Positions 37,298 through 56,357 of a stretch of 64,000 nt of DNA are shown here, piece by piece. The DNA lies in IMG/VR virus record IMGVR_UViG_3300008122_000001, positions 1-64,000 of that record; one strand, given 5' to 3'. Numbering within the stretch: position 1 is the first letter of the stretch; each line of letters starts with the position of its first letter. The notes beneath the pieces were generated by a model. The model made no database searches. It was not told where the DNA came from and worked only from the letters and a program-made list of their open reading frames with translations. The DNA is from a virus. Position numbers and translations under genes: made by a program.

Positions 37298-37585
37298 TCA
37301 TAAAATAGATAAAGCAACAGTTGCTATTTTACTCATAGTGCTTATATTACCTATAGGTAAATCTATCATTAAAACTGGCATAGGTGTTACCATACTAGAA
37401 GGTATACCTGTTGATAACATAGGATTAAATCTAAATATACCACCAACCTTAATATTTTCTATTGAACTACTAAAAGAAGTAGGACCATGTATAAAATTAC
37501 CTGCATCATTAGTAGTTGTTATTGAATTAGGTCCAGATGCTATTTGACTATACCAACTAGTATATCGTTTGTAGGTATTATATTT
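37298..37585 (-). CDS. Open frame without a usable start: possible frameshift extension of the spike gene
   Basis: The gap between 36874-37290 and 37540-38223 is fully open in one minus-strand frame from 37585 to a TGA at 37298. It reads SQIASGPNSITTTNDAGNF, then GPTSFSSSIENIKVGG and IPSSMVTPMPVLMIDLP. The text looks protein-like, but no ATG, GTG or TTG occurs before an internal ATG 120 bases from the end. Joining it to the upstream gene by a -1 shift between 37540 and 37585 gives a 308-aa protein. The sequence is consistent with a spike C-terminal part. It may also be a single-base deletion or error. Confidence 0.45.
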   Translation of the reverse strand, partial: KYNTYKRYTSWYSQIASGPNSITTTNDAGNFIHGPTSFSSSIENIKVGGIFRFNPMLSTGIPSSMVTPMPVLMIDLPIGNISTMSKIATVALSIL

Positions 37586-38223
37586 TCATCTTTAGAAAGC
37601 CCTGCTGTATCTTTAAACCATAAAGCTTCACCTTCAAAAGTATTTATTTTACTAGTCATAGCTTCTACATATTTAAAGTCACTTAGAGCTTGTATATCTT
37701 CATCAGTATACCCTTCATCTTTAAAATACTTCTTACCTATATCTGAAAATAAATCTGTAGTTTGACCAGCTATAGCCGTCCTAACTTTTCTAATAAGATT
37801 AGCTGGTATAATTGAAATAGTAGGTAATCCTAAATTTACTTCGGCAAATACAGCAACATTGTTTTTAACAACAACCTTAGCAGTTTTACCTATATACCTT
37901 GATAATTTATTATTAGAAGCATCTATGTTAGTAAGAACAGCTACTTCAGGGACTGTCATATCTTCATTTGGAATACCATCAGAGCCATTAAATAAACTGT
38001 CTCCATGATCTACTAAATCCCCTGATGGGGAAAAAGTAGATCCTTCATTTTTTCTAATAACTGCAAATACAGAATCATTAAGAATATATAAACTTTCTAT
38101 TGTACCTTCTAATATCAGTAAACTAGAATCATTAGCTCTAGTAACAAAATCTGTAGCATCAATACTAGGAGTATTTATTGCTTTAGTAATTCCATTTAAT
38201 ACGTTATTAATTTTATATGTCAT
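37540..38223 (-). CDS. Hub-associated spike/OB-type protein (227 aa)
   Basis: Located between the hub and the gp25-like wedge gene, where T4 gp5/gpV-like spike proteins usually sit. The N-terminal 120 residues are beta-rich with FVTRANDSSLLILEGTIES and SRYIGKTAKVVVKNNVAVFA, compatible with an OB-fold; the rest includes a helix ALSDFKYVEAMTSKI. The ATG at 38223 overlaps the hub gene's stop; a TTG at 38238 would extend it by five codons. The frame ends with TAG at 37540, directly before an open reading frame that looks like its continuation. Assignment as spike is by position and beta content. Confidence 0.5.
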   Translation of the reverse strand: MTYKINNVLNGITKAINTPSIDATDFVTRANDSSLLILEGTIESLYILNDSVFAVIRKNEGSTFSPSGDLVDHGDSLFNGSDGIPNEDMTVPEVAVLTNIDASNNKLSRYIGKTAKVVVKNNVAVFAEVNLGLPTISIIPANLIRKVRTAIAGQTTDLFSDIGKKYFKDEGYTDEDIQALSDFKYVEAMTSKINTFEGEALWFKDTAGLSKDENIIPTNDILVGIVK

Positions 38224-41200
38224 TAGTATAACTTCCAACTGAACTTGTATTTATCTTTTGAATTAATTGTTGTTTCATAACTTCTTCGTCAGATAAATAT
38301 GAAGCCATTTTTTTCTTATTATCAGCAGCTAATTGTTTATTGTTTGTTACTTTATTATCCGCAACTACAATTTTATTACCATCTGAATCTGTTTGATATA
38401 ATGGCGCACTTGTTCTTTGTTTGGAATTAGATGCAATACCACTAATAAGTGAGATATAAAACGGTCTATCTCCTGATAAATTAGTTACATCACTATTACC
38501 TACTAAGATACTTGCAGCCTTTTGTACTTCTTTAATTGTTTTACCAGCTTCTAATTTCTGAGAATCCAACCAAGAATTTCTTGTAACACCAGCCATACCA
38601 CCTACATAAGGTTTTCCATGTCTTACTATAGGGAAGTAAAGTAATGGTTGTCTCATTAATTGATTCTCTTCTACTTTAGCCATACCGTATTGAATAGCAG
38701 CAAATAAAATAATATCTAATGCAATTGTTAACGGATTTGATAATGTAACTGCTAACATAGAACTATAAAGAACACGACCTGTAACTTTAGCTGCTTCTAT
38801 AGTTGCTTTAGTTCCTAAACCTAATATTGGTTTAGTTGCTTTCCACACTAACCCTGATTTTCTATTTGTTCGTATCTCATTTACTTTTTCCATAAACTTA
38901 CTACTAGCTATAATAGCTTTTGGTTGACTGATAATACCACGAACATCTAAAGAACTCTTATTAACCCACATAGAAGCCTTACCAGCTTGTGTTTTAGCTA
39001 ATTGAGTGATCTTAGATCTAGTTCTTTCCCATAACCAAAGATCAGTTCTATTAACAAATATTCTATAGAAGTTTTTACTAAATCCAACAGCACCAGATGA
39101 ATATTGAACTCCAGCAAATTTAAGTATAGAGTTTTTACCACTCATGCCTATAGTGTTTGCAAGTGAGTTTACTAAATAAGCAGACAAACCAACTGTGGCT
39201 GCATAAATAGCTGCAACTTCTTTCTCAGTAGGGTTTGAATTAACCTTATCCATTTCTAATTCAGCTTGTCTTAGAATAGTTAAATAATCTGAAACCATAT
39301 TAAAGTCTTCACTAGAAAAGTTAGAACCAACTACAGTTTTCATTTTAGATGTTACAATTTTACATGCACAAATTAAATTTAACCATAAAGAAGAATACAT
39401 AAAATTAGCTGCTTCTACATACTGACCCGGTACTATCTCAGTTACAAAACCTACCTTCTCATTGAAATGATGGTAACATTCTCTAACCAATACTAGTCCA
39501 TGCATTCTCATATCAGAATCATCTAAGAATACATAATCACCAGCTTTTAACGTTGGATTACCTACTATTAGTATTTTTCCTTGATACATTTTTTCAGCTT
39601 CTTTTTTAAGTTCCTCTGTTCCATAAAGGAATGCAGAGTATTTACTTAAACAACCACTTAATGTTAATTCTTTAGCTCTAATATCAAAAGGATATAAATT
39701 ATCATCAGCTTTAGCATCATATACTTCTAAATCCCAAGGCTTACCACCTAATGCATCACTTCTATCTTCATAATAATTAACTCTAACTTTAGTTGAATAT
39801 GTTGAATTCAATCTTAAACCATTATTAATTAAATTATTATTAGAAGTAACTAAATGGATATTTGAGACTGGAGCCATTCTCTCTCTACGTCTATTATAAT
39901 ACGTAGCTAAATCAAAACCAATACCAGTGTCTTTTTGATCCGCAGCAGATATTTGTAAAGCTTTAGTTAAATCTTTTTTGAAGTACATTTGTTCTTTTAT
40001 TCCGTAGAATAAAGTCATACGATCTTCATATAACATAGGCTTACAAATAGTGTTAGGGTGTCTATATTCCATTTGTTTCATACATTGCCAAGGTGTCATT
40101 TTATAGACTGCAAAAGGATATCCTCCAGCATGGTTAGAGAACCAACTAGCAATATTAGTAATCCAACCACTATAGTTAGAATACTCATCATCTATTTTTT
40201 CAATTTCAGGAGCAAATACGTTCATAAACAATCTACTCTTATATGAAGCTTTTGTAAAATCAACAAACCAATTATAAGAGAAACTGAAACGACCAGGAGC
40301 TAAAGATCTATCTTCTGGGTCTGTACTGTTTCTAAATTTATCTGATACAAACCCACTATTATAACCAAAGTGTTCTATAGTCTCATTAACTAAAGCTTCA
40401 CCAATAACAGAAGCAGTACTTATATTATCATTTTGATCATTCATGAAAGTAGGTTTTTCAGTTGCTAATAGATCACTAAGTAACTCTTTACCATACCCTT
40501 CTAAAATTAAATTAAGATTTTGATTACTAGTTTCTAAATCTACAATAGATCCATTAAATACTATTTCTAGTTCATTAGGGTCATTACCGTAACCTAATCT
40601 TACTTGTATTTTGTTACCAGGTTTTAATTGTATTCTATTGTTTTTAAACTGTATTTCTTCAGATAAACCAATAGCATTTACATTAACACCTTGCATTTTA
40701 GAAATACCTGCAAACCCATCAGTATTTAAGAAGGAAGGATCAGCAATAGAAATAACGGCTGTATCTATAGGGTTAGAATCATTATTACAACTCATTCCAA
40801 AAGACTTAACACCTTTTATTTCATAATAAAGAATATCACCTTTTAAAGTATCTAACCAAAACTTATCGTTTTCATTACCTATAGTCATATAAACTTTGAT
40901 AGACGGTAAAGATGCTTTTAGACCTACATTAGTGTTTTTATAAATGTTTTCAAAAATAGCATCAGCTAATTTATCTTCATTAAATACTGTATTTTCATCA
41001 GTAACACCTTTACGAGTTCTTTCTAAAGAAGGTAATTCATCTGAAACAACTCTATTAGATATATTTGCCATTTGACTTGGATTGTCACCAGGTTTATATA
41101 GTGCTAATTCTTTAGTTCCAAATGGATTAACTGGAGTACCATTATATCTTACTTCATAGTGTAAATGAGCACCAGTACTTCTACCAGTATTACCTACTTC

Positions 41201-44200
41201 ACCTATTTTTTGACCTTGAATAACACTAGCACCATTAGCTACAGATGCAGCTCTTAAGTGTGCATATAAAGATAAGAAACCATTTCCATGATCTATTTTT
41301 ACATGTAATCCATAACCAGAACTTCCTGAATTTATTACAGTAGCTTTACCTGAAGCAGCAGCTATTACTGTTCCACCTTGAACTTTATAAGTAGCTAAAT
41401 CTATACCAGTATGTCTGTAACTCTTACCTTTAGCATTTGTTCTTGCTTCACCAAAAGGTGCAGATATTCTGTACTTAACTTCTGTACCTAAAGGTATGAA
41501 ATTATTTAAAGCATTTGCATTTGCTTTTTTAGCATACTCAAAATCTTTTTCAGTAAACTTTTGATAGTTAACATTATTCTTTAAATTGTTTAAAGTATTA
41601 TTACTTAACTTAGTTAAATCTACTCTGTTTTCACTTCTCGGTTTAGTAAGTACACCGTCAGGGTAAGACCATAATCCTTTTTGATTTTGTTTAGCTTGAC
41701 TCTCTGCTTTTGTGTATTCACCTGTAACTGTAAACCCTTCAGGTACAAAACCAAAACCATTTCTTAACATTGTTAATGAAACATTAGTACCATCAGCTAA
41801 TTTAACTAAACCAACATTACGATCATACGTAGGTCCACCTAATTGTACTGTAACATTTTTACCATTAACTAAAGCTGTTAATGCATCTTTAGCATTTTTA
41901 CCAAATATCTCAAGATCTTCAAGACTAACACTTTCAGGTGTATCTAAACCATACAAACGTACTTTATGAGTTTTATTAGTCTTAGTGTCTCTTACAACTA
42001 TTGTATCACCATCTGTTATACTTATTACTACTCCTTTAATAGTTTTAGAACTTGTAGTATTAGATGTATTTTTATCTTCTTTAGATTTAGATGCTTCTTG
42101 ATATGCTTTATTAGCAGAATCAATAGCTTCTTGTTGTTTCTTAAATGGTATAAAAGCTTTAGTACCACTATTAGTTAATTTTTTATTCTGTTCAGATAAG
42201 TTATCAAGTAGTTTGTCTGCTTGGCTTTTAACAGTATCTGATGCATTAATTTTATTATAACTTGGTACATTATCAATAGACATAGCTTTTGCCATATGGC
42301 TATAATAATTTCTTACTGTCTGTACATCATTACTACCTATAAATGAAGCTGATTGTGCTCTAATTAAAGATCTTACTTCTCCTGGTATACTAGTAGCTCC
42401 ATTCTCTAAAACAGCTTTAACAGCGTTTAAACCACCTCTACCGATGTTATGTTGAATGAAAGAATAAACAGGGTCAGTTACCCCTCCTTTTTGAGTTCCA
42501 CCGTATTGCTCTTTAATATGTTTTTCAATAAACATTTGAGCATTTAAATACAAATCATTCATAGATGTATTTTTAACTTGGTTTACAAAATTACTAGATG
42601 GGTTTGCAGAATAACCTACTCTACCACCATTTGAATATTCTAATTTATTATTAGAATATTGTATTAAATCTTTTACAGCTATATAGGTAAATTGGAATAA
42701 ACCTACAGCACCTGTTCCTGATTTCATATTAGTACCATTAGCACTTTCTTTTAACAGTACAGCATAAACATAAGATCTAAATCCTTCATCTTTATCTTTA
42801 CCATATTTTTTAAGAGCTTTTTCGATAGCTTGAGAAATTTGTGGACTTACTTTTTTAGCTGATGCAGTACCTCCAGTAACTTTACCCATATTAGTAGCTA
42901 ATCCAGAACCAAAACCAATTGAATCTCCATAAATTTGACTTGTATCTAAAGGTATATAATCTATCTCTTCTAGTTTTCTATAAGTTACTTGTAAGTTAGG
43001 TACTGTTGCATCTACCTTATCTGTTTCTTCTGATGGTACAGAATTTAAATTAGTTAATAAGTCTTTATTGTAGTTAGAATCTCTATACATTTTTTCATAA
43101 ACTTGATTAAATTCATTTCCATTTAAAATAGTTTTTTCTTTTATAAAGAAAAATGGATCTATTCTTGGAACAAGTAAATCAGTTAATCTATTATATGCAT
43201 TAGGTGCTAATATTTCATAATCTAAATCTTCAATATTATAACCAAAGAATACTTTTGAATATTTCTCAGTAATGTTTTCTAATACTTCTTTTACTTCTTC
43301 ATTATTAAGAGCTTTCTCATTTACAATTGCTCCCTCTTTAATACCTGAATTAATTTTACTAATAATACTTAAAGCTAAATTATTAAATCTACCTGATGAA
43401 GTATAACTTACACTTGGTAATGTTGTTCCTAAACCTTTTTGTAAATTAGATCTAGTTTTTAAAATGTACACCATAAATGGGATTAAAGAATTATGTAATT
43501 GTAAACTAGTTAAAGAAATACCTTCTTTCTTAGCTTCTTTTCTTTTCTTTTCAGCTTCTTTTATATAAGCAATATTTGATGCATTCCCACCATACTTACT
43601 ATCTAATACACCTTCTGTAGCTACATCTACATTATGATTTTCTAAATAAGGTTTGTATAATTTATATCTAGAAAGTTCTTTAGTATAAGTAGTATCTATC
43701 TTTTTGTATTTTCTAATTATATTACTTCCAGGTTTTAAATCTGAAGAATTATCAATAGCACTTGTTATAGCTTCATATTGAGGATAACCATTCATAGTCA
43801 TCTCTGACATAGCTTCTTTACTTAATTCTATTATAGCTTTATAAATAGTTAGTATATGTATGTTTGTTAAGTTATTATTAGAATCTCTACTATTTAAAAT
43901 ATTAGCTAAAGATTGTGGCATACCGATAAGCCATTGAATAATTATATCGATAATTTTTTCTTGGCTCTTATCTAAACTATTAGCACCACTAGCTTCTACT
44001 CTACCTTGCTCAACAAATTCAGTTAAATCACTTTCATTAAATGAATATTGTATATTTTCTAATCCTTGAGAATTAGCACTAGCTGATACGACAGATTGTG
44101 ATGGTAAAAATGCTTCACAATCAAATAAGAAAGTGGCAAGAGATTGTATTTTAATATAGTTATATGTTTCAGCTTCTGGTATTGCAATTCTATTATAATC

Positions 44201-45523
44201 TAGAACATTTAGTACTTGCTTAATAAAAACATTTACTGGTGGTTCATTAGTTTTATAAATATCATAATTAACAGAAGACATAGTTACATTAACGTTAACA
44301 GGGTACTTACCTAAGTATTGAACTATAGGATGTTTATAAGAACCAATTTGATGTGTTACTAATCTATTCTTTCTTCTTATTTCAATTTTATTTACACCTA
44401 AAGCTAAAGACTGAATATCAGTACCTACCCAATCAATGAAAACATCTTTTGATCCCATAGGCATAGTTGATTTTGCTTTATCTTTATTAGTGTTAGATTG
44501 TTTAATTTGATCTTTATATTCTTGTGCTACTTCTATAAATGGGTTTACAATTTCATTACTTTCAGATTTATCTTTTGGTTTTTCTTCTTTTTTAGAAGTT
44601 TTAATTTCACCTTGTTTAATTCTATCTTCTGAATTAATAGTTTGAATCTTTTCAGTATTTACAAATTCAGGTCCATCGAAACTAAAATCTTGTTGAGATA
44701 AAGTAGCTAATAAGTTTTCAAATGTACCTTCATCATATTTAGATATATCTGTAACAGTTATTACTTTAGTACCTTTACCTACATATCTACCATCTTCTAC
44801 ATTTTCAATACCTTCACTAATTACACTCATAGTAGGAGCTAAAATTTTAACTCCCATCATAGGGTGTGCAGATTTAGTATTAGTAATTGTATAATCTAAC
44901 AAACTAGATTCAGTAAGATTTTCAAGAACTTTTTTAACTCTTGGATTCATATATTGTTTCCAAACTTCTGAATCTCTTAATGAGTTAACAACTACTGCTC
45001 CAGTATCATCTTCATAAGGCATACCTTGACTATTTAAAGCTACATTTAAATTAGATCTAAATTCAAAATCTTGAATCAATGGAGTATGGTTATAGTATTG
45101 TAAAACAACTTCTAAGAAAACCATATTAGATGCAGCTGCATCTTGAACAAGAGCTATTTCATCTACAGCAAATATCATATAGTCTGTAACAGACATATTA
45201 GTTGGAGAGATATAAGCTTTTATTCTATTATTTTTTATAAAACAAAAAGGGTAAGCATTTAATTCTGAAACTAGCTTAATACAGTTATATGTATTATTTA
45301 AACCTGTCTTATCTTCTTCTGTTAAATATGTAATCTGAAAAGGTATATTAAGAACTACTTTTGTTGCAGAATATTTTGAACGATAACAAAAGACAGCTTT
45401 AGATCTTAAATAACTGTCTTCCATAACCCAGTTGTCATCCATTACTTGAATATCAGACGGATTTATTTCCATTTCTATATCATTTATTATAAAAACTTCT
45501 TGTTGTTTATTATTAGCAACCAT
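38213..45523 (-). CDS. Multi-enzyme baseplate hub: SLT, SNase, M23 and gp27/gpD-like domains (2436 aa)
   Basis: Domains, by residue: about 1-170 and 350-520 hold two beta-rich baseplate-like segments. An SLT-type lytic transglycosylase lies at 895-1080, with LLKESANG around the catalytic E926 and GLFQFT. A staphylococcal-nuclease-like domain lies at 1159-1290, with ITDGDTIVV, RLYGLDTPE (R1188, E1196) and YDRNVG (R1235). An M23 metallopeptidase lies at 1345-1475, with HTGID (H1371, D1375) and HLHYE (H1453, H1455). At about 1534-2037 is a gp27/late-control-D-like hub (KASLPSIKVYMTIG, RIQLKPGNKIQVRLGYG). The C-terminal 400 residues include hydrophobic stretches. It should sit at the tail tip, cut peptidoglycan and attach the spike. 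All catalytic residues named are present. Confidence 0.85.
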   Translation of the reverse strand: MVANNKQQEVFIINDIEMEINPSDIQVMDDNWVMEDSYLRSKAVFCYRSKYSATKVVLNIPFQITYLTEEDKTGLNNTYNCIKLVSELNAYPFCFIKNNRIKAYISPTNMSVTDYMIFAVDEIALVQDAAASNMVFLEVVLQYYNHTPLIQDFEFRSNLNVALNSQGMPYEDDTGAVVVNSLRDSEVWKQYMNPRVKKVLENLTESSLLDYTITNTKSAHPMMGVKILAPTMSVISEGIENVEDGRYVGKGTKVITVTDISKYDEGTFENLLATLSQQDFSFDGPEFVNTEKIQTINSEDRIKQGEIKTSKKEEKPKDKSESNEIVNPFIEVAQEYKDQIKQSNTNKDKAKSTMPMGSKDVFIDWVGTDIQSLALGVNKIEIRRKNRLVTHQIGSYKHPIVQYLGKYPVNVNVTMSSVNYDIYKTNEPPVNVFIKQVLNVLDYNRIAIPEAETYNYIKIQSLATFLFDCEAFLPSQSVVSASANSQGLENIQYSFNESDLTEFVEQGRVEASGANSLDKSQEKIIDIIIQWLIGMPQSLANILNSRDSNNNLTNIHILTIYKAIIELSKEAMSEMTMNGYPQYEAITSAIDNSSDLKPGSNIIRKYKKIDTTYTKELSRYKLYKPYLENHNVDVATEGVLDSKYGGNASNIAYIKEAEKKRKEAKKEGISLTSLQLHNSLIPFMVYILKTRSNLQKGLGTTLPSVSYTSSGRFNNLALSIISKINSGIKEGAIVNEKALNNEEVKEVLENITEKYSKVFFGYNIEDLDYEILAPNAYNRLTDLLVPRIDPFFFIKEKTILNGNEFNQVYEKMYRDSNYNKDLLTNLNSVPSEETDKVDATVPNLQVTYRKLEEIDYIPLDTSQIYGDSIGFGSGLATNMGKVTGGTASAKKVSPQISQAIEKALKKYGKDKDEGFRSYVYAVLLKESANGTNMKSGTGAVGLFQFTYIAVKDLIQYSNNKLEYSNGGRVGYSANPSSNFVNQVKNTSMNDLYLNAQMFIEKHIKEQYGGTQKGGVTDPVYSFIQHNIGRGGLNAVKAVLENGATSIPGEVRSLIRAQSASFIGSNDVQTVRNYYSHMAKAMSIDNVPSYNKINASDTVKSQADKLLDNLSEQNKKLTNSGTKAFIPFKKQQEAIDSANKAYQEASKSKEDKNTSNTTSSKTIKGVVISITDGDTIVVRDTKTNKTHKVRLYGLDTPESVSLEDLEIFGKNAKDALTALVNGKNVTVQLGGPTYDRNVGLVKLADGTNVSLTMLRNGFGFVPEGFTVTGEYTKAESQAKQNQKGLWSYPDGVLTKPRSENRVDLTKLSNNTLNNLKNNVNYQKFTEKDFEYAKKANANALNNFIPLGTEVKYRISAPFGEARTNAKGKSYRHTGIDLATYKVQGGTVIAAASGKATVINSGSSGYGLHVKIDHGNGFLSLYAHLRAASVANGASVIQGQKIGEVGNTGRSTGAHLHYEVRYNGTPVNPFGTKELALYKPGDNPSQMANISNRVVSDELPSLERTRKGVTDENTVFNEDKLADAIFENIYKNTNVGLKASLPSIKVYMTIGNENDKFWLDTLKGDILYYEIKGVKSFGMSCNNDSNPIDTAVISIADPSFLNTDGFAGISKMQGVNVNAIGLSEEIQFKNNRIQLKPGNKIQVRLGYGNDPNELEIVFNGSIVDLETSNQNLNLILEGYGKELLSDLLATEKPTFMNDQNDNISTASVIGEALVNETIEHFGYNSGFVSDKFRNSTDPEDRSLAPGRFSFSYNWFVDFTKASYKSRLFMNVFAPEIEKIDDEYSNYSGWITNIASWFSNHAGGYPFAVYKMTPWQCMKQMEYRHPNTICKPMLYEDRMTLFYGIKEQMYFKKDLTKALQISAADQKDTGIGFDLATYYNRRRERMAPVSNIHLVTSNNNLINNGLRLNSTYSTKVRVNYYEDRSDALGGKPWDLEVYDAKADDNLYPFDIRAKELTLSGCLSKYSAFLYGTEELKKEAEKMYQGKILIVGNPTLKAGDYVFLDDSDMRMHGLVLVRECYHHFNEKVGFVTEIVPGQYVEAANFMYSSLWLNLICACKIVTSKMKTVVGSNFSSEDFNMVSDYLTILRQAELEMDKVNSNPTEKEVAAIYAATVGLSAYLVNSLANTIGMSGKNSILKFAGVQYSSGAVGFSKNFYRIFVNRTDLWLWERTRSKITQLAKTQAGKASMWVNKSSLDVRGIISQPKAIIASSKFMEKVNEIRTNRKSGLVWKATKPILGLGTKATIEAAKVTGRVLYSSMLAVTLSNPLTIALDIILFAAIQYGMAKVEENQLMRQPLLYFPIVRHGKPYVGGMAGVTRNSWLDSQKLEAGKTIKEVQKAASILVGNSDVTNLSGDRPFYISLISGIASNSKQRTSAPLYQTDSDGNKIVVADNKVTNNKQLAADNKKKMASYLSDEEVMKQQLIQKINTSSVGSYTNDI

Positions 45524-45544: not shown

Positions 45545-48500
45545 TTAGTTTGTTTGTAATCTTGCAGATCTTATACCTTCTCCAAAGAGAGAGTTAGATA
45601 AATTATAGATTTGATCTTGTACGTTTCCAGAATCTAACATACTGTTATACTCATTATACATATCACTCATACCATTAACCATTTCGCCACCTACTTTTAT
45701 ACCCTTAGCTCCGAAAGTTTTAGGTAATATGTATCCTGCTTTATTTGGATTTGTTTCTACACCCATTGGTGTATTATTTTGGGTTTCACCATCATAAGCT
45801 CCTGGAGATCTTAACATACTAGCACTATGTTGTCTAGCAGCTGATCTACTATCAGAGAAACTTGGTTGTTCTCTTCCTAATAAAGCTACACCTGCCATAG
45901 CAGCTAAACCTCCTCCTATTAACATCTTATTGTTTTTAACAATATCAGTAATAAAATCAGTAGCTCCTAAAGCAACTTGACCTGTAGATTTTTTCAAGTG
46001 TTTTAATCCACTCTCATAATCCATTTCAGTTATACCTTGTTCTTTTATAATACTATTTAAAGTATCTATAAATTCTCCACTAGAACTTCCAAAACGTTTA
46101 TCATTTAAATCTAAAGGTGTAAACGGAGTATCTGTAACTTGTCTTGCATGATTTATTTCAGAAGAAATAATACTTTCCATGATCTTAACAGATTCAGCTT
46201 TAGTTTGTTTTCCTAAAAGAGTAGAAGTATCAATATTATTAATACCTAAGAAACTTGGTAAAGTATTTTTAAGTTCTTCTGCATATTGTTTAGTAGTAAC
46301 ACCTTCATAACCTTTCTTACCTAAGAATCCACTTCTCATTCTAGTTAATCTTTCTACATCTTGTTCAGTAACAAGTTGGAAAGAGTCTGTGTCTAAGTGA
46401 GCAGATTTCAAAAGGTTCTCAACTAATTGGTGAATCATTACACGACCTTGTGTTAATTCCTTACTAGTACTACCTAAATGTCCAAGATTCATCTCTAATG
46501 CTTTAGCATATGAAACAGCTAATCCAGTTGCTGGAGCAGCTAGTGTTTTTCTGTTTCTACCTTTTAACCCACCTGATACTCTATACGTAGCATATTCTTC
46601 TGCATTTTGAAAATCAAGTGCAGATTTCATATTAGCCTTATTACCTTTAACTTTCATAGCTTTAGTTACCTCAGCCATTTCAAAGAAAGATTGTCTAATA
46701 GGTGCTCGTTTTCTTTCAATATCTTCATATTGACTTCTAGTTTGGAAATCACCTAAAAGTGTTTGAACCATATCCTGATCACCGTCACCAAACATTGCAT
46801 TGTAATAAATATCATTACTAATAGGTATAAAAATGTTTCCAGCATTATTTTTATTTAAGGTTGTATCTACATATAAAGAAATTAAATCAGAAGATAAAGG
46901 ACCTTGAGCTGGTTCCCTAGTTATTAAACTTGCTAAAGGTATTACATCATTACCTCTTTTAAAAACTGGTCGTTTAAGATTATCATATCCATCTACTGTT
47001 TCCCAATTCAAATCAACACCAAGTTGTTTAGCTTTTTGTCTAGCATCATCTTCAGAAACAAACCAAGCATGTCTGTTTTCTTTTAATTCTGAAGTGGCAA
47101 ATTTATCAGCGTTACCACCAATATATTTAACCTGCATAATACTTGATTTATCAGAGTATAAAGATAAACCAGTTTTAAGTAAGTTATTATCACCAGACAT
47201 CATGTTCTTAGTGAAAATATCATATTTTTCTAGTTTTTCTTTTAATACTTGTTCTGTTCTTATTCTTTCTTCTTTAGTTTTACTATCTCTGAAAGCTAAG
47301 TCAGATACCATTATATCTATCTTTCTTTTCTCTAAATCTTTAAGGATTTTTAAATCTGAATCTTCATACAACCCACTTCTATTAGTTGTTAATCTTGAGA
47401 AATTAATTGATTGTACATCACCTGATCTGAAAGATAAATTATATGTTAAATATGGATTATTCTCTAATATATCCACAGACCTTCCGAAAGAACTTCTAAG
47501 TAATTCTAAACGTTGTTCTGGTGTATTATTTTGAGTAATAATATTTAAGAATCTTCCTTCTTTCCCTTGTATTACAGAATTAATAGAATTTTTAGATATT
47601 CTTCTTTCTTCGCTTATACTTCTTAATTCATATAAAGCTTCTTCATTTTTTAAACCAAACAATGAAAGATCTTTTGATGTAAATCCAGAAGATTTTAAGT
47701 TAGTAATAGCAGCCCATGATAATTTAGCTTTTTTATCTTTACCTACAATTGAAGCACCTTTGTTAAAACTACCTACAGCTAAACTATGACCAGATAAATA
47801 ATTATTAACTAAATCAGAACTAGCAACAATGTTATAAGCTCTTTGTAAAAAATCACCTTTATTTTCTGCATTCCTAAAATTGTCAATATTAAAATGATAT
47901 AGAAAATCTTCTCTAAATGAAGAATTTAATGCACCTTTTTTTATCTTATTTTCAATATCAACAGCTAAAGTAGTAGTTAAATCTACAGCACCTTTATGCT
48001 CAGAAAATAAAGCAGAAACCATCGCTGAACCTGCTACTGAATTATTTCTTTTCATTAACAGATCATAAATATTGTTACCCCTTGCACCTTCTCTAAGCAT
48101 AGTTCTGATTTTAGAAGCACCAGTATCTTCTGCTCTTGAGATTAATGTTATAGGATTTACTACAGTATTGTCTTTAGTTTCTAATGTTTTACTTAAAGCT
48201 GAAATTAATGATGATCTTGAACTATGATTTACACCATCTAAATCAAAAGAACCATTTGCAAGTTCTGTTACTCGTCCTTGATTTATTGCTGTACCTAATG
48301 CAGTAAGAACATTAAATCTAGATTCAGTTAAACCAGTGTTTAAAGATTTAGTACCAGTAGAATAGAATTTCATGTTCTGCTCAGTAGTAGGATCAAAAAT
48401 AGATTCTGTAACTAAACGAATATCTTTTTCAGTCATAAAACCATCAATGATTTTACCTTCTGTATACATTTTATTTAGATGTATAGGACTTCCATTTTCT

Positions 48501-50725
48501 TTGTAAGCTAATGGAGAGTTATCTATAGAAATAGGATTATTTTGTAAGTATTCACTTAAACCCTCAGAAGAGGTTAAACCAGTTAATAGATCTTGATTAG
48601 CTATTGCCATATTATTAGACAACGGGATCTTTATAGTAGATTTATCACTTATACGTAAAGAATCGACATCACCCATATTAAAGAAACCAGCACCATCACC
48701 AAGAACCATATCATTACCATAAAGATAGGTTGCTAAACTATTGAATAGCTTGTCATCCATAATATCTAAACGGTTTAATACTTGAGAACTTGAAAATTGC
48801 CTATTAAATCTATCAGAACCTATCATAGATTCTAAAGACTGAGTATTTAAGTTTTTATTTACAACATTAGTACCTCTATTACCTACACTTGTTTCTCCTC
48901 TTTCATTAGGAGCTAAAACAGCTAAACTAGTATATCCTTGAGTATTTATAGAAGTAAGATTACCTAAAGATAACCCATCAAATAAATGTGCAGCTTGTTC
49001 AGGAGGTAATTCTTGAGCTAATTTTAAAAAAGCTCTTTGTCTTTCTGAAGACATATTTTTTATTGAAGATTGTTTTAAAGATCTTAAAGGATATTTTTGA
49101 TCTATCTCTCCATACTGGTTATATCTAACTAACCTCTTAGTTCCATCTATATTAACTTCTAGTCCATCTACATATGCTTTAGAATAAGGGTTAAATTGAG
49201 AAGCTACACTGTAATTACCATTACCCATATTATGATATCTAGTTCCATCTTTATTGTAAGATGTTAAAGGTATACTAACTCTTTCATTACTCACTTTATC
49301 TACAAAAGATGCAACACCATCTTTTAACACCATTTCTCCAGAAGATCTATTAAATAATAATCTAGCTTTTTCTTCTGCATCTACAGCATTGTTACCTAAT
49401 TGATTTTTTAACCAATTAGTGATTTGAGATAAATTATCAGCAACAATTAATTTAGAATCCCATTTATTAACTTTTAACTGAGATTGATTAATGTATCTAG
49501 TATTATTATCTTTTAATATAGTATTAACTTTAGTTAAGATACTAACATCATTAGTGTTATTTAAAGTATGAAATATCTCTTCTCTTGTATTACCAACATT
49601 AATACCGTTACTTTTAAGTACATTCTTAATATTATCAAATACTTGTTGTTCATCTTGATATCTAGATGTTACTCTATTTACTTTAGTTTCATACTTACTT
49701 ATTCTATTTTTTCTTTTAGAATAAATATTATCTTGTGAAGAATTTACCCAATTGCTTACATTTTCTTTTCTAGTATTAAAGTTATCAGAAAGTCTAGCTA
49801 GTGCTTCTTCTCTTTGTTTATTAGTTTCAACTTTAAAATCATCAAATAATAAACTACTTCTTAATTCGAAATTAGAAATCTCTTCTTTATTCTTTAGTTG
49901 AAAATCTTTCATCCAAGGATTAAATAAATCTTTCTTATCTGCATGTAATCTTTTATTATAGTACTCTTGTCTTTTTAATACAGGCTTGAATACATTATTA
50001 TTCTTAGTTGTGTATTCTTTAAATAAATCATTTCTTAAGTCTGTAATGTCACGACCACTCAGATGCGATTTAAGAGACTTTTGCTTCTCTATCCACTGAT
50101 CATAAGCTTTAAGTTCTTTTCTTCCTCTAGGAGTCTCTAGATAGCGAGAAATAGATGATTCTTCTCTACTTGTCATCCTATTGTAGAATTCTATTTCTTT
50201 ATTCTTTTCTAATACAGAAAGATTACCTTTTTTATACTCTAATAGATCATTAGAAAAGTTTAATCGTTTTTCTAATATAGAATCATACTTATTATTTATT
50301 CTACTAACAGATTTTTGATAACTATCATCTAGCTTCATCTGAGCTTGTATTTGACGTTTTACTAAGTCAGAGGGTGTTAACCTATCTCTAGAGTTAAACG
50401 AGCTACTAAGAGCATTTAAACGAGAATCAAGAGGGGTTTTAGTTCTGTTATAGAAAGAATTAAATTTATCTTTTAATAACGCTAAGTCTTCTCCTAATTC
50501 TTGCCTAAGTTGTTGTTCTCTAATGTAATCCATGTTAACAACTGGACCTACATTCACTTTAGAATTATTCATTAAAGAAGTAGTAGGAATATTTAGAAAA
50601 GCACCTACTCCAGCTCCTATTCCTGTTGTGATAATACCAGATAAAGGATTTTCAGTTATATCTGAAGTATAAGCTCCAAACGCACCACCTGCTATCATAG
50701 CACCTGTTCTAATATCAATTCCCAT
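45545..50725 (-). CDS. Tape-measure-region giant protein (1726 aa)
   Basis: I start at ATG 50725 with AGAGAGAAG upstream; a GTG at 50752 would add nine residues. The N-terminus has a glycine/alanine-rich hydrophobic stretch (GAMIAGGAFGAYTS, TTGIGAGVGAFL). Residues about 60-400 are charged alpha-helical. A long S/N-rich middle follows, and near 1640 a second hydrophobic stretch MLIGGGLAAMAGVALLG. Charged helices plus hydrophobic patches, position between tail tube/chaperones and the hub, and size all fit a tape measure protein that is ejected into the host envelope. The 1276-aa neighbour is a second candidate, so which one sets tail length is unclear. Confidence 0.6.
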   Translation of the reverse strand: MGIDIRTGAMIAGGAFGAYTSDITENPLSGIITTGIGAGVGAFLNIPTTSLMNNSKVNVGPVVNMDYIREQQLRQELGEDLALLKDKFNSFYNRTKTPLDSRLNALSSSFNSRDRLTPSDLVKRQIQAQMKLDDSYQKSVSRINNKYDSILEKRLNFSNDLLEYKKGNLSVLEKNKEIEFYNRMTSREESSISRYLETPRGRKELKAYDQWIEKQKSLKSHLSGRDITDLRNDLFKEYTTKNNNVFKPVLKRQEYYNKRLHADKKDLFNPWMKDFQLKNKEEISNFELRSSLLFDDFKVETNKQREEALARLSDNFNTRKENVSNWVNSSQDNIYSKRKNRISKYETKVNRVTSRYQDEQQVFDNIKNVLKSNGINVGNTREEIFHTLNNTNDVSILTKVNTILKDNNTRYINQSQLKVNKWDSKLIVADNLSQITNWLKNQLGNNAVDAEEKARLLFNRSSGEMVLKDGVASFVDKVSNERVSIPLTSYNKDGTRYHNMGNGNYSVASQFNPYSKAYVDGLEVNIDGTKRLVRYNQYGEIDQKYPLRSLKQSSIKNMSSERQRAFLKLAQELPPEQAAHLFDGLSLGNLTSINTQGYTSLAVLAPNERGETSVGNRGTNVVNKNLNTQSLESMIGSDRFNRQFSSSQVLNRLDIMDDKLFNSLATYLYGNDMVLGDGAGFFNMGDVDSLRISDKSTIKIPLSNNMAIANQDLLTGLTSSEGLSEYLQNNPISIDNSPLAYKENGSPIHLNKMYTEGKIIDGFMTEKDIRLVTESIFDPTTEQNMKFYSTGTKSLNTGLTESRFNVLTALGTAINQGRVTELANGSFDLDGVNHSSRSSLISALSKTLETKDNTVVNPITLISRAEDTGASKIRTMLREGARGNNIYDLLMKRNNSVAGSAMVSALFSEHKGAVDLTTTLAVDIENKIKKGALNSSFREDFLYHFNIDNFRNAENKGDFLQRAYNIVASSDLVNNYLSGHSLAVGSFNKGASIVGKDKKAKLSWAAITNLKSSGFTSKDLSLFGLKNEEALYELRSISEERRISKNSINSVIQGKEGRFLNIITQNNTPEQRLELLRSSFGRSVDILENNPYLTYNLSFRSGDVQSINFSRLTTNRSGLYEDSDLKILKDLEKRKIDIMVSDLAFRDSKTKEERIRTEQVLKEKLEKYDIFTKNMMSGDNNLLKTGLSLYSDKSSIMQVKYIGGNADKFATSELKENRHAWFVSEDDARQKAKQLGVDLNWETVDGYDNLKRPVFKRGNDVIPLASLITREPAQGPLSSDLISLYVDTTLNKNNAGNIFIPISNDIYYNAMFGDGDQDMVQTLLGDFQTRSQYEDIERKRAPIRQSFFEMAEVTKAMKVKGNKANMKSALDFQNAEEYATYRVSGGLKGRNRKTLAAPATGLAVSYAKALEMNLGHLGSTSKELTQGRVMIHQLVENLLKSAHLDTDSFQLVTEQDVERLTRMRSGFLGKKGYEGVTTKQYAEELKNTLPSFLGINNIDTSTLLGKQTKAESVKIMESIISSEINHARQVTDTPFTPLDLNDKRFGSSSGEFIDTLNSIIKEQGITEMDYESGLKHLKKSTGQVALGATDFITDIVKNNKMLIGGGLAAMAGVALLGREQPSFSDSRSAARQHSASMLRSPGAYDGETQNNTPMGVETNPNKAGYILPKTFGAKGIKVGGEMVNGMSDMYNEYNSMLDSGNVQDQIYNLSNSLFGEGIRSARLQTN

Positions 50726-50789
50726 ATTCTTCTCTCTTTGTCTCAGGGTCACTATTATATAACAATAATGATAATAATATTTATTATTT

Positions 50790-50929: not shown

Positions 50930-53900
50930 TCATTCTTCTCTTATCAATATAGAATTATAATTACTATCTACTAGATCTATCTTAGAAGGTTTAAACCCAT
51001 TATCAAACATAACATTTTCTATACTTCTTTTCATTCTTCTATCACTTCTTATATCTTCTTTAATTCTATCTATATCAGTAAATACTGTATCTGTGTTAAC
51101 AATACCTTGTAATCTATTCATTCTTTCTTCATCTTTCTTCCAATATCCAAATCTTTTAAGATCTTGACCACCAATAGATAAAGTTCTTATTTTAATATCA
51201 TCCATTGTTAAACGGGGGTCCCATCCTACAAATCCTGTATTAGGTACACCAGTTTTAGAGTTAACATAAGTTAATGCTTCTCTATCAGCCATCTTACGTC
51301 TTAATAATTCATCTTCTGTATATTGAATTCTCTTAGAAGTATTAATACCTTGTCCTACATAGTTATCAGAATTAGCCGCAACTTTAGCTCTAGCCTTTTG
51401 TTTATCTTCTGCTGTTAAATCAACATTATATAAAGAACTAAGTCTGTCTGTTTGCTCACTTAAACTATCACCTATAGCTTCTTGTATATTACTTCCTCTG
51501 CTTCTAGCTTTTTTAGCTATATCCATATTATGCCAGATTTGTTCATAACCTCTTCTAACATCTTCAGGTAACATAGCCCTAATTTTATTTCTTTTATCTA
51601 TATTAGTTTCTTGAGAAAAAGAATCAAAATAATCTTTTTGATCATCTTGTAAAGAACGTTTAAATTTTAATACTTTATCTTTAGTATTTAAACCAGACAT
51701 ACTAGCACCTATAACAGTACTATCAGATTGAAATTCACTGTTAGCTCTTCTAGCCTTTAAGTATTTAAATTTATCAAAGTATTCATCAATATTAAACTTC
51801 TCTTTAGCTTCTTCAGGAATAAAAGTACCACTAACATCTAAAGATTGTCTAGTTTTATTTAAAGCTGGTTTTATAAAGTGCGAATAAGGATTTGTCCAAA
51901 TAGCTGTATCAGGTCCACCTAATTGTGTCTCCATATAATCTTCTATTGCCGTTCTTTTATGTAAGAATTTAGCAGCAGGTCTAATAGGAGTTAACATTTC
52001 TAAAGGAGATTCTGCATTAGCTCTCATAGTTTCCCATAAAGCGTTATGAACACTTCCTATAGGTCCTTGAAACTTACTAGGAGTATCATAGAAATCTTTC
52101 TTTCTATCTCTTTCTAATTCTTGATCTAAAGTAGTACCAAGTATATCTATTTCATTAGCTGATAATTTACCTTGTTGATATGCATCTATAGCTTGTTTAC
52201 GAGCATTAATAAATTCTTCCGAACCTTTTGCTACATTAGATAGAATCTTATGTTTAAATACTAAAGGATAGTCTTCTGCATTTACCCCTTTCAATTCAGG
52301 ATATAAGGATTCTAGTCCAACACCAGGTAATCTTTCTTCCCCTCTATCTATAGCATCATACATATTACCATGTTTAAAATCTACAAAATATTTAGATTTA
52401 TCTGAAGGCAACCAACTAGGAGCATTATTAGCAATAGGGTTAAATCTATCAGGAAGTGCTCCAGATGATGTAGGTAATAGCTTTCTTTGGAATTCACCAG
52501 CACCCATCAAGTCACCTAAGTTTTGCTCTAATAGATCTCTAGCACCATTAGATGCTTCACCAGATCTTGCTAACTGAATAGAATTAACCCCAGGCTCTAA
52601 TCCTAATCCATCAACAACTAAAGAAGAACCCCAACCTTTAATACCTGTAAAATCCATTAAAGCTCTATATGATAAACTCATACCTTCTTGATTAGGATCA
52701 TATCCAGGAGTATTAGGAGCTAACATTAATCCTTCATTAATTAGTGAAGAATCTTTATTATCTATCCCTTGTAGTTTTTTATTAGAACTAGAACTAAATA
52801 AGCTCTTAGATGCTTCTATAAACGATTTACCAACGTTTTGTTTAACATGTAATACATCAGAAGCAACTGTTCCTAAAGTCCCTACACCACCTTCTGATGA
52901 AGCTACAGGGGTATACTCAGTTCCTTGCATAATCGCATCTTTATAAGCTGGATTAATAACATCAGGTTTAATAATCTGACCGACAGTTCTTTCAAATATT
53001 TTACCAAAGAAACTACCATAACTAACATCCATACCCCAAACTGGGTATGGCATACTCTCTGCATTTCTCTTTTCTAATTTATATGGATCTTTAAGGTAAC
53101 TGAAAGGATGTAAAAAAGGATCTAATTTCTTTTTAGTTTCATCATCACCATATCTTACTTTATCTGTAGCATCAGCTCTAGCACGAGCTACCCAGTTCTT
53201 AGTATGGTATTTAACACTACCACCATCCCAAGCACCACCACCAAATAACCAAAACTTAGTAGATTTCTCAGGAACTTCTTTTTCACCACTGTATAATTGT
53301 CTGAGTTCTTCTGAAGAAGATCCTATTAAAGCTCCTGGTAAAAATGGTAAAGCAAGAGAACCACCAATTAAACCACCAATCAATGCATTACGTTTCATTG
53401 GTTTTAATTTAGTATCAAAGTTTAAAACAGATTTAAGAACTTTTGATTCTTTTTCTACGTTATATATATTAGCAGCTTGATCTATACCTTTTATAGACGA
53501 CATACCTATTCTATTAAAATAAGCAACTTGAGCACCAGCTAAAGCACCCACTAACGGAAATGCTAACAGTGTACTTAAATCTGTACTACCAGGAGCTGAT
53601 TGTTCTTGTTGTTCTTTATAACCTTGAAATTTATCACTCCATACTTTAGCAAATGCTATTCTACTACTCGCATATATGTTTGCTAAACCAGTACCAAGTC
53701 CTTCTGAGAATATACCATTCTCAGGGCTAAGGTTTCTTAATACACTATCAACACCTTGATAAGCTAAATAAGTAGCACCACCTTTTACTGCAATATTTTT
53801 AGCAGATAATTTTAATGATTCTTTAATACCTAAATTATAATTACCATTAGTACCTAATTGAACTTTTCCTGAAATCTCTTTCATCTTGTTCCATATATTA

Positions 53901-54760
53901 GATTGGAACACACCAGTGTATCCAGCCCCAACTCCATGAAACATTTCTTCAATACCCGCTAAAGGATTGTCTAAAGTTTTATAACCTACTTCCATAGAAA
54001 ATCTAAGAGTAGATTGTGCCCACTTGGATGAGAAATCCATACCACTTTTAGCACCAACAACCATTAACGGAGAATTTTTAGCTCCAGTTTTATCAATCGA
54101 ACTTCCTAGAATATTAGCAAACTTTTCTAAGATATGGTTGTTAGAATATATCTCACCATTTTTTAAAGAACCCATAGTTAATCTAGCATTCTTTATTATT
54201 ACATCATCTAAGTTTATTGCACCTTTAGAATCAATACCATATAAAGTATTATTCTTAAAAAACATACCTCTAGTTAAATCTTTAATTTCTAATTTTCTTT
54301 TTATCTTTCTTTGTTCATCTTCATTAATGTATTTAATTAAAGATTCATAGTAGTGTTGTTGATTTCTAATACTATTTGCAGAAATATGTACAGTTTCATT
54401 ATTACTACTTAAAGGAGTAAAAGGTTGTAAAAAATTAGATATTTGAAGTGTTCTTAAAACGTGTAAAGGAGAAGCTTCTTCTAAAGCCATAAATTGAGAG
54501 AGTAAAACTTTCTGTAACGATTGTTCAGAATTTGAAAGGAGTTGAGAGGAAGTTGTAGAAACTAAGGTTCTGTTCATTTGATTGTTTAAATAATCAGAAC
54601 CAACTAGTTTTTGAGAAAATTTAGTTAACTTATCTGTCACACCCCATGCTTCATTCTTATTTTGTAAATAACCTAATGCAGGTAAACCTGCTGTTAAAGC
54701 CCCTACCGTAAAAATATCATGTAATAGGGGATCATTATTTGATGGGTCTGTGAAAGACAT
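50930..54760 (-). CDS. Tape-measure-region giant protein (1276 aa)
   Basis: Not recognised as a family, but it follows the tube and the two chaperone-like genes, the usual tape measure position. The N-terminus (FTVGALTAGLPALGYLQ), residues about 400-420 (STLLAFPLVGALAGAQVAYF) and about 457-475 (IGGLIGGSLALPFLPGALIG) are hydrophobic stretches with glycine spacing, as expected for a protein that enters a membrane on ejection. The rest is mixed, with charged helices in the last 300 residues. Strong AGGTAGGTTAAT box. It could be a second ejected protein or the tape measure itself. Confidence 0.6.
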   Translation of the reverse strand: MSFTDPSNNDPLLHDIFTVGALTAGLPALGYLQNKNEAWGVTDKLTKFSQKLVGSDYLNNQMNRTLVSTTSSQLLSNSEQSLQKVLLSQFMALEEASPLHVLRTLQISNFLQPFTPLSSNNETVHISANSIRNQQHYYESLIKYINEDEQRKIKRKLEIKDLTRGMFFKNNTLYGIDSKGAINLDDVIIKNARLTMGSLKNGEIYSNNHILEKFANILGSSIDKTGAKNSPLMVVGAKSGMDFSSKWAQSTLRFSMEVGYKTLDNPLAGIEEMFHGVGAGYTGVFQSNIWNKMKEISGKVQLGTNGNYNLGIKESLKLSAKNIAVKGGATYLAYQGVDSVLRNLSPENGIFSEGLGTGLANIYASSRIAFAKVWSDKFQGYKEQQEQSAPGSTDLSTLLAFPLVGALAGAQVAYFNRIGMSSIKGIDQAANIYNVEKESKVLKSVLNFDTKLKPMKRNALIGGLIGGSLALPFLPGALIGSSSEELRQLYSGEKEVPEKSTKFWLFGGGAWDGGSVKYHTKNWVARARADATDKVRYGDDETKKKLDPFLHPFSYLKDPYKLEKRNAESMPYPVWGMDVSYGSFFGKIFERTVGQIIKPDVINPAYKDAIMQGTEYTPVASSEGGVGTLGTVASDVLHVKQNVGKSFIEASKSLFSSSSNKKLQGIDNKDSSLINEGLMLAPNTPGYDPNQEGMSLSYRALMDFTGIKGWGSSLVVDGLGLEPGVNSIQLARSGEASNGARDLLEQNLGDLMGAGEFQRKLLPTSSGALPDRFNPIANNAPSWLPSDKSKYFVDFKHGNMYDAIDRGEERLPGVGLESLYPELKGVNAEDYPLVFKHKILSNVAKGSEEFINARKQAIDAYQQGKLSANEIDILGTTLDQELERDRKKDFYDTPSKFQGPIGSVHNALWETMRANAESPLEMLTPIRPAAKFLHKRTAIEDYMETQLGGPDTAIWTNPYSHFIKPALNKTRQSLDVSGTFIPEEAKEKFNIDEYFDKFKYLKARRANSEFQSDSTVIGASMSGLNTKDKVLKFKRSLQDDQKDYFDSFSQETNIDKRNKIRAMLPEDVRRGYEQIWHNMDIAKKARSRGSNIQEAIGDSLSEQTDRLSSLYNVDLTAEDKQKARAKVAANSDNYVGQGINTSKRIQYTEDELLRRKMADREALTYVNSKTGVPNTGFVGWDPRLTMDDIKIRTLSIGGQDLKRFGYWKKDEERMNRLQGIVNTDTVFTDIDRIKEDIRSDRRMKRSIENVMFDNGFKPSKIDLVDSNYNSILIREE

Positions 54761-54761
54761 A

Positions 54762-55286
54762 TTAACCTACCTTACTTTCTTGTTCTTCTTGGAATTCTAT
54801 AGGAGGTACACCACTAAAAGACATAGAACATAATGTATATCTTTTAATAATTTCATCTATAGGTAATGCTTGTGTAAACTCATAAGTATTATTTGTATAA
54901 TGAGCTACTACCATAATTAACCTATCCATGAGAGATACACTACTAAAATATGCTTGATATGATTGTTCTAAATCTTTAATAAGCATAAAAGAATTTAGTT
55001 TAATTTTAGTAGCTAAATGATCAATAATACCCGCTGGGCTATTCTCTATATCTAATTCCTCATTTTCAAATCCTAATATAGATATCAAACATTTATTTAC
55101 TATTTCTTCATTGATAGTGGATTCTTTCATTCCTGAAGACTCCATCATTTCAATTTTATTAAGATCAGGATAAGATAATAATTTAAATTTTAAATTTGGT
55201 GATACTAATACATTCCCTGATTTACAAGTTATTGTTAACTCTTTTAGGTTTAATAGATAGTAATCAATACCAGATTTTAGATACAT
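54762..55286 (-). CDS. Probable tail assembly chaperone (174 aa)
   Basis: Placed directly before the giant tape-measure-region gene, 1 base apart. It has an N-terminal beta segment (SGIDYYLLNLKELTITCKSG), then a helical acidic part, NEEIVNKCLISILGFEN, and IDHLATKIKLNSFMLIKD. A pattern of NEE(I/V)V.KC(L/V) followed by helical segments is seen in tail assembly chaperones that coat the tape measure protein. The neighbour 55297-55770 has a similar VLVEKCLLFP segment. RBS AAGGAGAG. No shift signal like that of the lambda G/GT pair is visible. The role is inferred from position and weak similarity. Confidence 0.55.
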   Translation of the reverse strand: MYLKSGIDYYLLNLKELTITCKSGNVLVSPNLKFKLLSYPDLNKIEMMESSGMKESTINEEIVNKCLISILGFENEELDIENSPAGIIDHLATKIKLNSFMLIKDLEQSYQAYFSSVSLMDRLIMVVAHYTNNTYEFTQALPIDEIIKRYTLCSMSFSGVPPIEFQEEQESKVG

Positions 55287-55296
55287 AATACTCTCC

Positions 55297-55770
55297 TTAA
55301 ATTATTTTAATAAGAGATAACGCTTCTTGTTGAGGAACAAAACCAGATTTGTATGCTATCTGTTTACCTACGGTAGTTATAATACCCGCATCACTAGTTA
55401 ATCTCCACTTCGTTGTTGGATGTGGAAATAATAGACATTTTTCTACTAAAACTTCATTCCCTTTTTCTTCGTTTTCAAAAACACCTTGATCTTGAAGTTT
55501 TTTAAAATCAGATCTTTTAATAGTGGTAAATATATAATAATCTTCAGAAGATGAAGAAACTTTAGATACAAATAAACTCTTATGTTTATCTTTCCATGCT
55601 TCTAGTACAGAAAGTAAAGGAGCATTTTCACCATAAATTTCAGATAGTAAAGAATGCAAATCTAACAGATCTTTATCTATTTGTGGTTCTTCATAAACTG
55701 GGTATTCTTCTTCTGTTGCTTGAGGTGGAATATACACATCTTTTTCTGCATGTTTATCTCTTATTTTCAT
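55297..55770 (-). CDS. Probable tail assembly chaperone (157 aa)
   Basis: The N-terminus is charged and proline-rich (ATEEEYPVYEEPQ). The centre is helical (LLDLHSLLSEIYGENAPLLS, AWKDKHKSLFVSKV) and the C-terminus has VLVEKCLLFPHPTTKWRLTS and TTVGKQIAYKSGFVPQQEAL. Position between tube paralogues and the tape-measure region is where most myoviruses place one or two assembly chaperones. It ends 10 bases before the next gene. No slippery heptamer is visible near its stop, so the two genes seem to be translated separately. Confidence 0.55.
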   Translation of the reverse strand: MKIRDKHAEKDVYIPPQATEEEYPVYEEPQIDKDLLDLHSLLSEIYGENAPLLSVLEAWKDKHKSLFVSKVSSSSEDYYIFTTIKRSDFKKLQDQGVFENEEKGNEVLVEKCLLFPHPTTKWRLTSDAGIITTVGKQIAYKSGFVPQQEALSLIKII

Positions 55771-56347: not shown

Positions 56348-56357
56348 TATAAAACTC

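Follow-up and report, generated by a model that had tools for sequence, protein, structure and literature searches.

Hardies et al. (2007; PMC2147016) described a gp27-family baseplate hub with exchangeable enzyme domains in the lineage of phage 0305phi8-36. The hub of 0305phi8-36, gp147, is fused to transglycosylase, NLP and M23 domains, and that of BtI1, a phage-like element of Bacillus thuringiensis israelensis, carries an N-terminal SNase and is followed by two separate murein hydrolase genes; the use of the SNase was called 'not obvious' (PMC2147016). Here we analysed the first 64 kb (hereafter the window) of the 183,705-base IMG/VR virus record IMGVR_UViG_3300008122_000001, in which one open reading frame (ORF) encodes a 2436-aa hub with the SNase placed internally, between a probable SLT transglycosylase and an M23 peptidase. 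An SNase on a hub of the 0305phi8-36 lineage was already known; as far as the literature shows, what is new is an SLT-SNase-M23 cassette in internal position and the finding that 11 hubs retain the catalytic residues. A first-pass annotation, made from the letters of the window, had described the protein as a single chain, and the frame was indeed uninterrupted. The following features were assigned:

38213-45523, minus strand: hub ORF, 2436 aa, ATG start, frame intact with 0 internal stops
42299-42871, minus strand: probable SLT transglycosylase domain, residues 885-1075 (marginal Pfam score, conserved motif)
42044-42298, minus strand: polar linker between SLT and SNase, residues 1076-1160 (sequence; low predicted local distance difference test score, pLDDT)
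41654-42043, minus strand: SNase domain, residues 1161-1290 (Pfam, PDB profile match, AlphaFold2 and Foldseek, residue conservation)
41480-41653, minus strand: polar linker between SNase and M23, residues 1291-1348 (sequence; low pLDDT)
41114-41479, minus strand: M23 metallopeptidase domain, residues 1349-1470 (Pfam, PDB, NCBIfam)
39374-41005, minus strand: gp27/gpD/VgrG-type hub domain, residues 1507-2050 (AlphaFold2 and Foldseek; profile links to all hub relatives)
45014-45493, minus strand: conserved N-terminal structural domain, residues 11-170 (homolog alignment)
38594-38749, minus strand: conserved C-terminal hydrophobic segment, then an EEN-QPLL-P-HGKPY-GM-G motif, residues 2259-2310 (homolog alignment)

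The SNase and the other domains of the hub chain

The Pfam SNase family (PF00565) matched residues 1187-1286 with an E value of 1.1e-13 (52.0 bits, cut-off 21), and a PDB profile search with this region retrieved staphylococcal nuclease structures (best E 1e-8). An AlphaFold model of residues 885-1490 was of good quality only in the SNase core (pLDDT mostly 67-88), where the secondary structure elements follow in the order b-b-b-a-b-b-a-a. Foldseek paired this core, an OB fold, with staphylococcal nuclease (E 1.8e-7, TMt 0.74-0.78); the predicted fold of the region is that of a nuclease and not a non-nuclease fold. The alignment behind the model had three rows, the model was poor outside the SNase, and no spatial arrangement of the domains is claimed from it.

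Residues D1171, D1173, R1189, D1194, T1195, E1197 and R1235 are equivalent to D19, D21, R35, D40, T41, E43 and R87 of staphylococcal nuclease. The first-pass annotation had named R1188 and E1196, which are in fact a valine and a proline, the correct residues being R1189 and E1197; its R1235 and its M23 residues H1371, D1375, H1453 and H1455 were right. In the alignment of the window hub with both other full-length homologs, gp37 of Acinetobacter phage ME3 and the hub of IMGVR_3300047477_000310 (L002), 31 of 123 SNase-domain columns were invariant. All seven tested functional residues were among them, which is not a chance result (probability 4e-5). When 11 distinct hub SNases were compared, the equivalents of D19, D21, R35, E43 and R87 were kept in all 11 and that of D40 in seven, including all three of the internal type. 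The NCBIfam matches of the domain include the Ca-activated or secreted thermonucleases EcnA and NucI, with scores below their equivalog cut-offs. Judging from these comparisons, the SNase of the window hub most likely functions as a Ca2+-dependent nuclease with a competent active site.

The M23 domain was assigned with high scores (Pfam Peptidase_M23, PF01551, at 1370-1467; E 2.1e-27, 95.6 bits, cut-off 28.7). Its HxxxD...HxH zinc site, formed by H1371, D1375, H1453 and H1455, is invariant in the three homologs, so that the impression of active domains given in the first-pass annotation was borne out at the level of conserved residues, in 11 divergent hubs for the SNase and in three for M23. 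The domain matches solved structures such as PDB 3slu (E 6e-21) and is closest in type to the MepM/ShyA DD-endopeptidases (NCBIfam MepM model, E 2.5e-24, under its equivalog cut-off).

The SLT assignment was marginal. In the full protein, Pfam SLT (PF01464) scored 17.6 bits at residues 910-954 (E 0.003), under the cut-off of 21.3; scanned as an isolated piece, the region reached 21.6 bits, barely above it, and the L002 homolog 23.0 bits. Pfam gave no SLT match in the ME3 hub, and a PDB profile search with the SLT region gave no match. The E926-S and G-L-x-Q motif of this region is invariant in the three full-length homologs, and the window hub probably contains an SLT domain with E926 as candidate catalytic glutamate. 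With this reservation for the SLT, profiles and folds agree with the initial description of SLT, SNase, M23 and a gp27/gpD-like hub in one chain.

A PDB sequence search with the hub part (about 1500-2060) found no match. Foldseek searches with a model of this part, of modest confidence (predicted TM-score 0.50), retrieved AlgoCIS 7aef_q (E 5.5e-13), Mu gp44 (1wru), T4 gp27 (1k28_D, E 8e-8), VgrG and spike proteins of extracellular contractile injection systems. From its modelled fold and its operon, we assign the window protein as the baseplate hub of a contractile-tailed jumbo phage from the ME3/0305phi8-36 lineage.

At the ends of the chain, the N-terminal domain is strongly conserved (79 of 150 columns of residues 11-160 invariant in the three homologs) and is recognisable in the hubs L005, L007 and L009 as well. 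The C-terminal hydrophobic segment and motif are possibly a membrane-active or tube-contact element. A recognisable counterpart of the motif is present in the consensus of Bacillus-type hubs.

Relatives, rarity and history of the hub SNase

The window hub shares 34% identity with ME3 gp37 over 96% of its length, a co-linear, full-length homology, and 43% with the L002 hub; both homologs have the SNase between the SLT region and M23. The ME3-type hub family phrog_8809 matches residues 5-2346 with 1326 bits. Eight further hubs of the 0305phi8-36-like branch bear a divergent SNase at the N-terminus, namely those of Bacillus phage KLEB27-3 (gp035), of the phage-like plasmids pAD3 (B. velezensis) and pN497-ZHONG (Cytobacillus), and of the IMG/VR loci L110, L111/L117, L112, L113-L116 and L118. 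In KLEB27-3 gp035 the SNase is placed before the N-terminal structural domain, and in pAD3 and pN497-ZHONG the murein hydrolases are encoded by separate genes downstream of the hub.

Hubs lacking the SNase vary in content: L005 has M23 only, L007 an Amidase_2 domain and L009 nothing recognisable, and the hubs of a Paenibacillus plasmid and a Bacillus halotolerans plasmid have a C-terminal glucosaminidase and a C-terminal lysozyme-like domain, respectively. L007:3299-13693 and L009:9938-19807 encode hub relatives of about 3290-3465 aa in which large inserts split the hub domain. The plasmid relatives were found with the hub piece alone, the whole-cassette plasmid query being dominated by M23 matches. 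Several 200-240 kb PLSDB 'plasmids' (L021-L026; Bacillus, Cytobacillus and Paenibacillus) bear 0305phi8-36-like jumbo tail genes and, from this gene content, look like phage-plasmids. A scan of genome contigs with the ME3-type alignment found no relatives, and one with the Bacillus-type alignment only a partial fragment of a metagenome-assembled genome (L109). Against viral contigs, the KLEB27-3 hub as a single-sequence query had no match, and a three-sequence alignment detected 15 loci.

To put the fusion in proportion, we controlled the best 80 SNase matches in viral contigs for ORF size: 79 were stand-alone (median 136 aa), and the single fusion was the ME3 hub. This set is a sample and no census, and L002 is not among the matches listed. 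Since standing alone is the usual form of a phage SNase, the association with the hub is specific. A tblastn search with the SNase against 50,697 phage records found no large SNase fusion outside the hub family. The other candidate fusions (Mycobacterium phage Adler, Moraxella Mcat8, Staphylococcus Pel11, Curvibacter TJ1 and four unannotated phage fragments) were all stand-alone ORFs of at most 333 aa. Although phrog_6700 spans the SNase-M23 region, a third SNase architecture is not claimed, as the phage records showed no large SNase fusion beyond the hub family. In these sequence collections, phages rarely carry an SNase within a giant structural protein, and the cases recur inside one hub family. 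The earlier remark that a nuclease in a tail-tip protein is unusual thus holds for its frequency but not for its novelty, a hub SNase having been published in 2007 (PMC2147016).

In a hub-core tree (midpoint root, long branches), the internal- and N-terminal-SNase hubs formed two groups with SNase-free hubs between them. Together with the different insertion sites, this suggests that the SNase was gained twice in the hub lineage, or once and then relocated. An SNase tree, also with long branches, placed the 11 hub SNases on one side of a branch (support 88/62) and fits either history.

Possible roles of a nuclease at the tail tip

We favour, with roughly even confidence, the view that the hub carries a virion-borne Ca2+-dependent nuclease, tethered together with murein hydrolases, that acts extracytoplasmically, its substrate being nucleic acid at the cell surface or periplasm. 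The SLT-SNase-M23 cassette would be held on flexible linkers just before the hub domain, in the role of the T4 gp5 lysozyme; hubs of the 0305phi8-36 lineage have been taken to carry hydrolases in the tail-lysozyme position (PMC2147016). On contraction, SLT would cut the glycan strands and M23 the peptide cross-bridges, opening the murein, and the SNase would work in the same space, outside the cytoplasm. We infer that the cassette is present in the virion on a trimeric hub, and that it is enzymatically active in this compartment and on this substrate. In support of this view, polar linkers flank the SNase on both sides, and each of the three full-length homologs has the domain between its SLT region and M23. 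Staphylococcal nuclease is a secreted Ca2+ enzyme, and a surface-attached extracellular nuclease, Nuc2, figures in the title of PMC3994088. Of the three uses proposed in the first-pass annotation, action in the envelope or periplasm would fit best; cutting of host DNA in the cytoplasm and processing of the genome end found no support, as discussed below.

Several observations weigh against an extracytoplasmic entry nuclease. A nuclease adjoining the channel through which the DNA leaves puts the phage's own genome at risk. The D40 equivalent is replaced (by Q, E, N and N) in four of the eight N-terminal hub SNases, and Ca2+ use may therefore differ there. Finally, SNase-free hubs are common (L005, L007, L009 and the Paenibacillus and B. 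licheniformis types), and the SNase is therefore dispensable for entry in general. A wider generalisation, which we regard as rather doubtful, would make the tail-tip nuclease a regular entry tool of jumbo phages in the ME3/0305phi8-36 lineage, recruited at two hub sites and directed at envelope nucleic acid, perhaps the DNA of rival phages or plasmids crossing the periplasm. We know of no characterised precedent for an entry-stage nuclease function. Our literature search found no test of a nuclease role at the tail tip, and a jumbo-phage review does not mention an SNase.

The SNase could also clear extracellular DNA of biofilms or lysates that would trap virions, thus acting before adsorption and not in entry. 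We consider this possible but not probable; it is a sub-case of the extracytoplasmic reading with a distinct predicted phenotype, and the probabilities of the two overlap. Staphylococcal-type nucleases are secreted, use Ca2+ and modulate biofilm (PMC3214024). Moreover, hub SNases occur in phages of Gram-negative (Acinetobacter) and Gram-positive (Bacillus, Cytobacillus) hosts, and their use is therefore not tied to an outer membrane. However, a virion presumably holds no more than three copies of the hub, and until contraction the baseplate usually covers it, which makes the hub a poor site for matrix clearing, and depolymerases are usually located on fibres. Clearing of matrix or lysate DNA and action during penetration are indistinguishable by sequence.

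It is unlikely that the domain is a structural or nucleic-acid-binding OB fold in which catalysis is not needed. Catalysis has been lost in some SNase-domain proteins, e.g. in the SND1 repeats, and the loss of D40 in four N-terminal hub SNases would be in line with this. The conserved catalytic set argues against it: none of the 11 hubs has lost D19, D21, R35, E43 or R87 despite low overall identity, and the internal type retains all seven functional residues.

Quite unlikely, too, is an SNase that reaches the cytoplasm together with the phage DNA, or before it, and there breaks down the host chromosome or resident plasmids. The conserved catalytic residues would permit such a function, and genes for stand-alone SNases are common in phages, where some of the products may be directed at host DNA. 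The hub SNase, however, is covalently joined to a hub in which a gp27-type domain forms the end of the tail tube, its two neighbouring domains are cell-wall enzymes, and to our knowledge cytoplasmic delivery of hub or spike parts has no precedent. The cytoplasm contains little free Ca2+, and the nucleases used in host takeover are normally synthesised after infection. Cytoplasmic delivery is thus disfavoured by the tether to the hub and by the low Ca2+.

Action on the phage's own DNA, by trimming its leading end in the tail or by clearing jammed ejections, is very unlikely even though the phage genome may be the nearest DNA to a domain beside the tube exit, because a non-specific SNase would destroy the incoming genome and related phages do without the domain in hubs of the same family; nor is the SNase site fixed relative to the hub ring (internal or N-terminal).

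Tail-tip hydrolases have been taken to open murein, and a conserved nuclease among them implies that some phages need to cut nucleic acid before or during genome exit from the tube. The question of function left from 2007 is now testable with 11 divergent hubs, intact catalytic residues and two architectures. The SNase-free hubs of the same family are natural controls, and ME3 is an isolated phage whose hub shares its domain order with the window hub.

The tail operon and known systems

By sequence, the window hub and ME3 gp37 are distant orthologs, and the tail operon around them, of jumbo-myovirus type, is syntenic. The operon matches that of ME3 gene by gene, from near the head genes through the sheath, the ME3_35 ortholog and the hub to the wedge proteins, with identities of 52% for the sheath, 51% for the ME3_35 ortholog and 34% for the hub. 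The contractile-tail context is given by genes for the sheath (phrog_16991, E 4e-94), a baseplate wedge protein (phrog_6, E 2e-6) and tape-measure-like proteins. The hub SNase was the sole SNase detected in the 183.7-kb record. The host is likely Gram-negative, since ME3 is the only isolated full-length relative found. Synteny with ME3 identified the following genes:

37540-38238, minus strand: downstream baseplate-region gene, ME3_38 ortholog (31%)
45545-50752, minus strand: upstream gene, 1735 aa, ME3_36 ortholog
50930-54760, minus strand: 1276-aa gene, ME3_35 ortholog (51%), virion structural protein of 0305phi8-36 type

Upstream of the ME3_35 ortholog, two small genes (54762-55286 and 55297-55770, minus strand) are placed as would fit the split tail chaperonin reported for 0305phi8-36; in ME3, the annotation of ME3_33 reads putative tail chaperonin. 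Three consecutive genes after the sheath (55772-56419, 56358-57050 and 57113-57826, minus strand) all match phrog_9206, labelled major head protein; their place, which is that of ME3_30-32, suggests that they are tail-tube paralogs. At the start of the window, an SbcD-like phosphoesterase gene (1568-2656, plus strand; weak, E 0.0017) is paired with one for an SbcC-like ATPase (2643-4517, plus strand).

Compared with known systems, the window protein shares its hub fold with T4 gp27-gp5 and Mu gp44, and T4 likewise holds its tail lysozyme beside the hub, but these proteins are much smaller, the lysozyme is on a separate chain and there is no nuclease. Staphylococcal thermonuclease (Nuc/NucI, PF00565) has the same fold and catalytic residues as the hub SNase but is a secreted, single-domain, non-virion protein.

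The hubs of 0305phi8-36 and BtI1 were compared by their published description (PMC2147016). In 0305phi8-36 gp147, SLT and M23 are fused to the hub, as M23 and probably SLT are in the window protein, whereas no SNase is reported, M23 is found at the C-terminus and there is an NLP domain. The BtI1 protein belongs to the same hub lineage (gp27/gpD family) and also bears an SNase on the chain, but this SNase is N-terminal and the murein hydrolases are separate genes just downstream, in contrast to the internal SNase between the probable SLT and M23 in the window. The BtI1-like arrangement is also seen in pAD3 and pN497-ZHONG. The divergent SNases of KLEB27-3 gp035 and of the pAD3 and pN497-ZHONG hubs ('nuclease') keep R35, E43 and R87, but are N-terminal, and Pfam finds no murein hydrolase in the chain; D40 is lost in KLEB27-3. 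ME3 gp37 (vB_AbaM_ME3, KU935715) differs in having no Pfam SLT match and 34% identity, and is annotated only as a baseplate hub protein or peptidase, its SNase being unnamed. It agrees, however, with the window protein in its operon and in the order of SNase, M23 and hub, and the glutamate of the SLT region is conserved.

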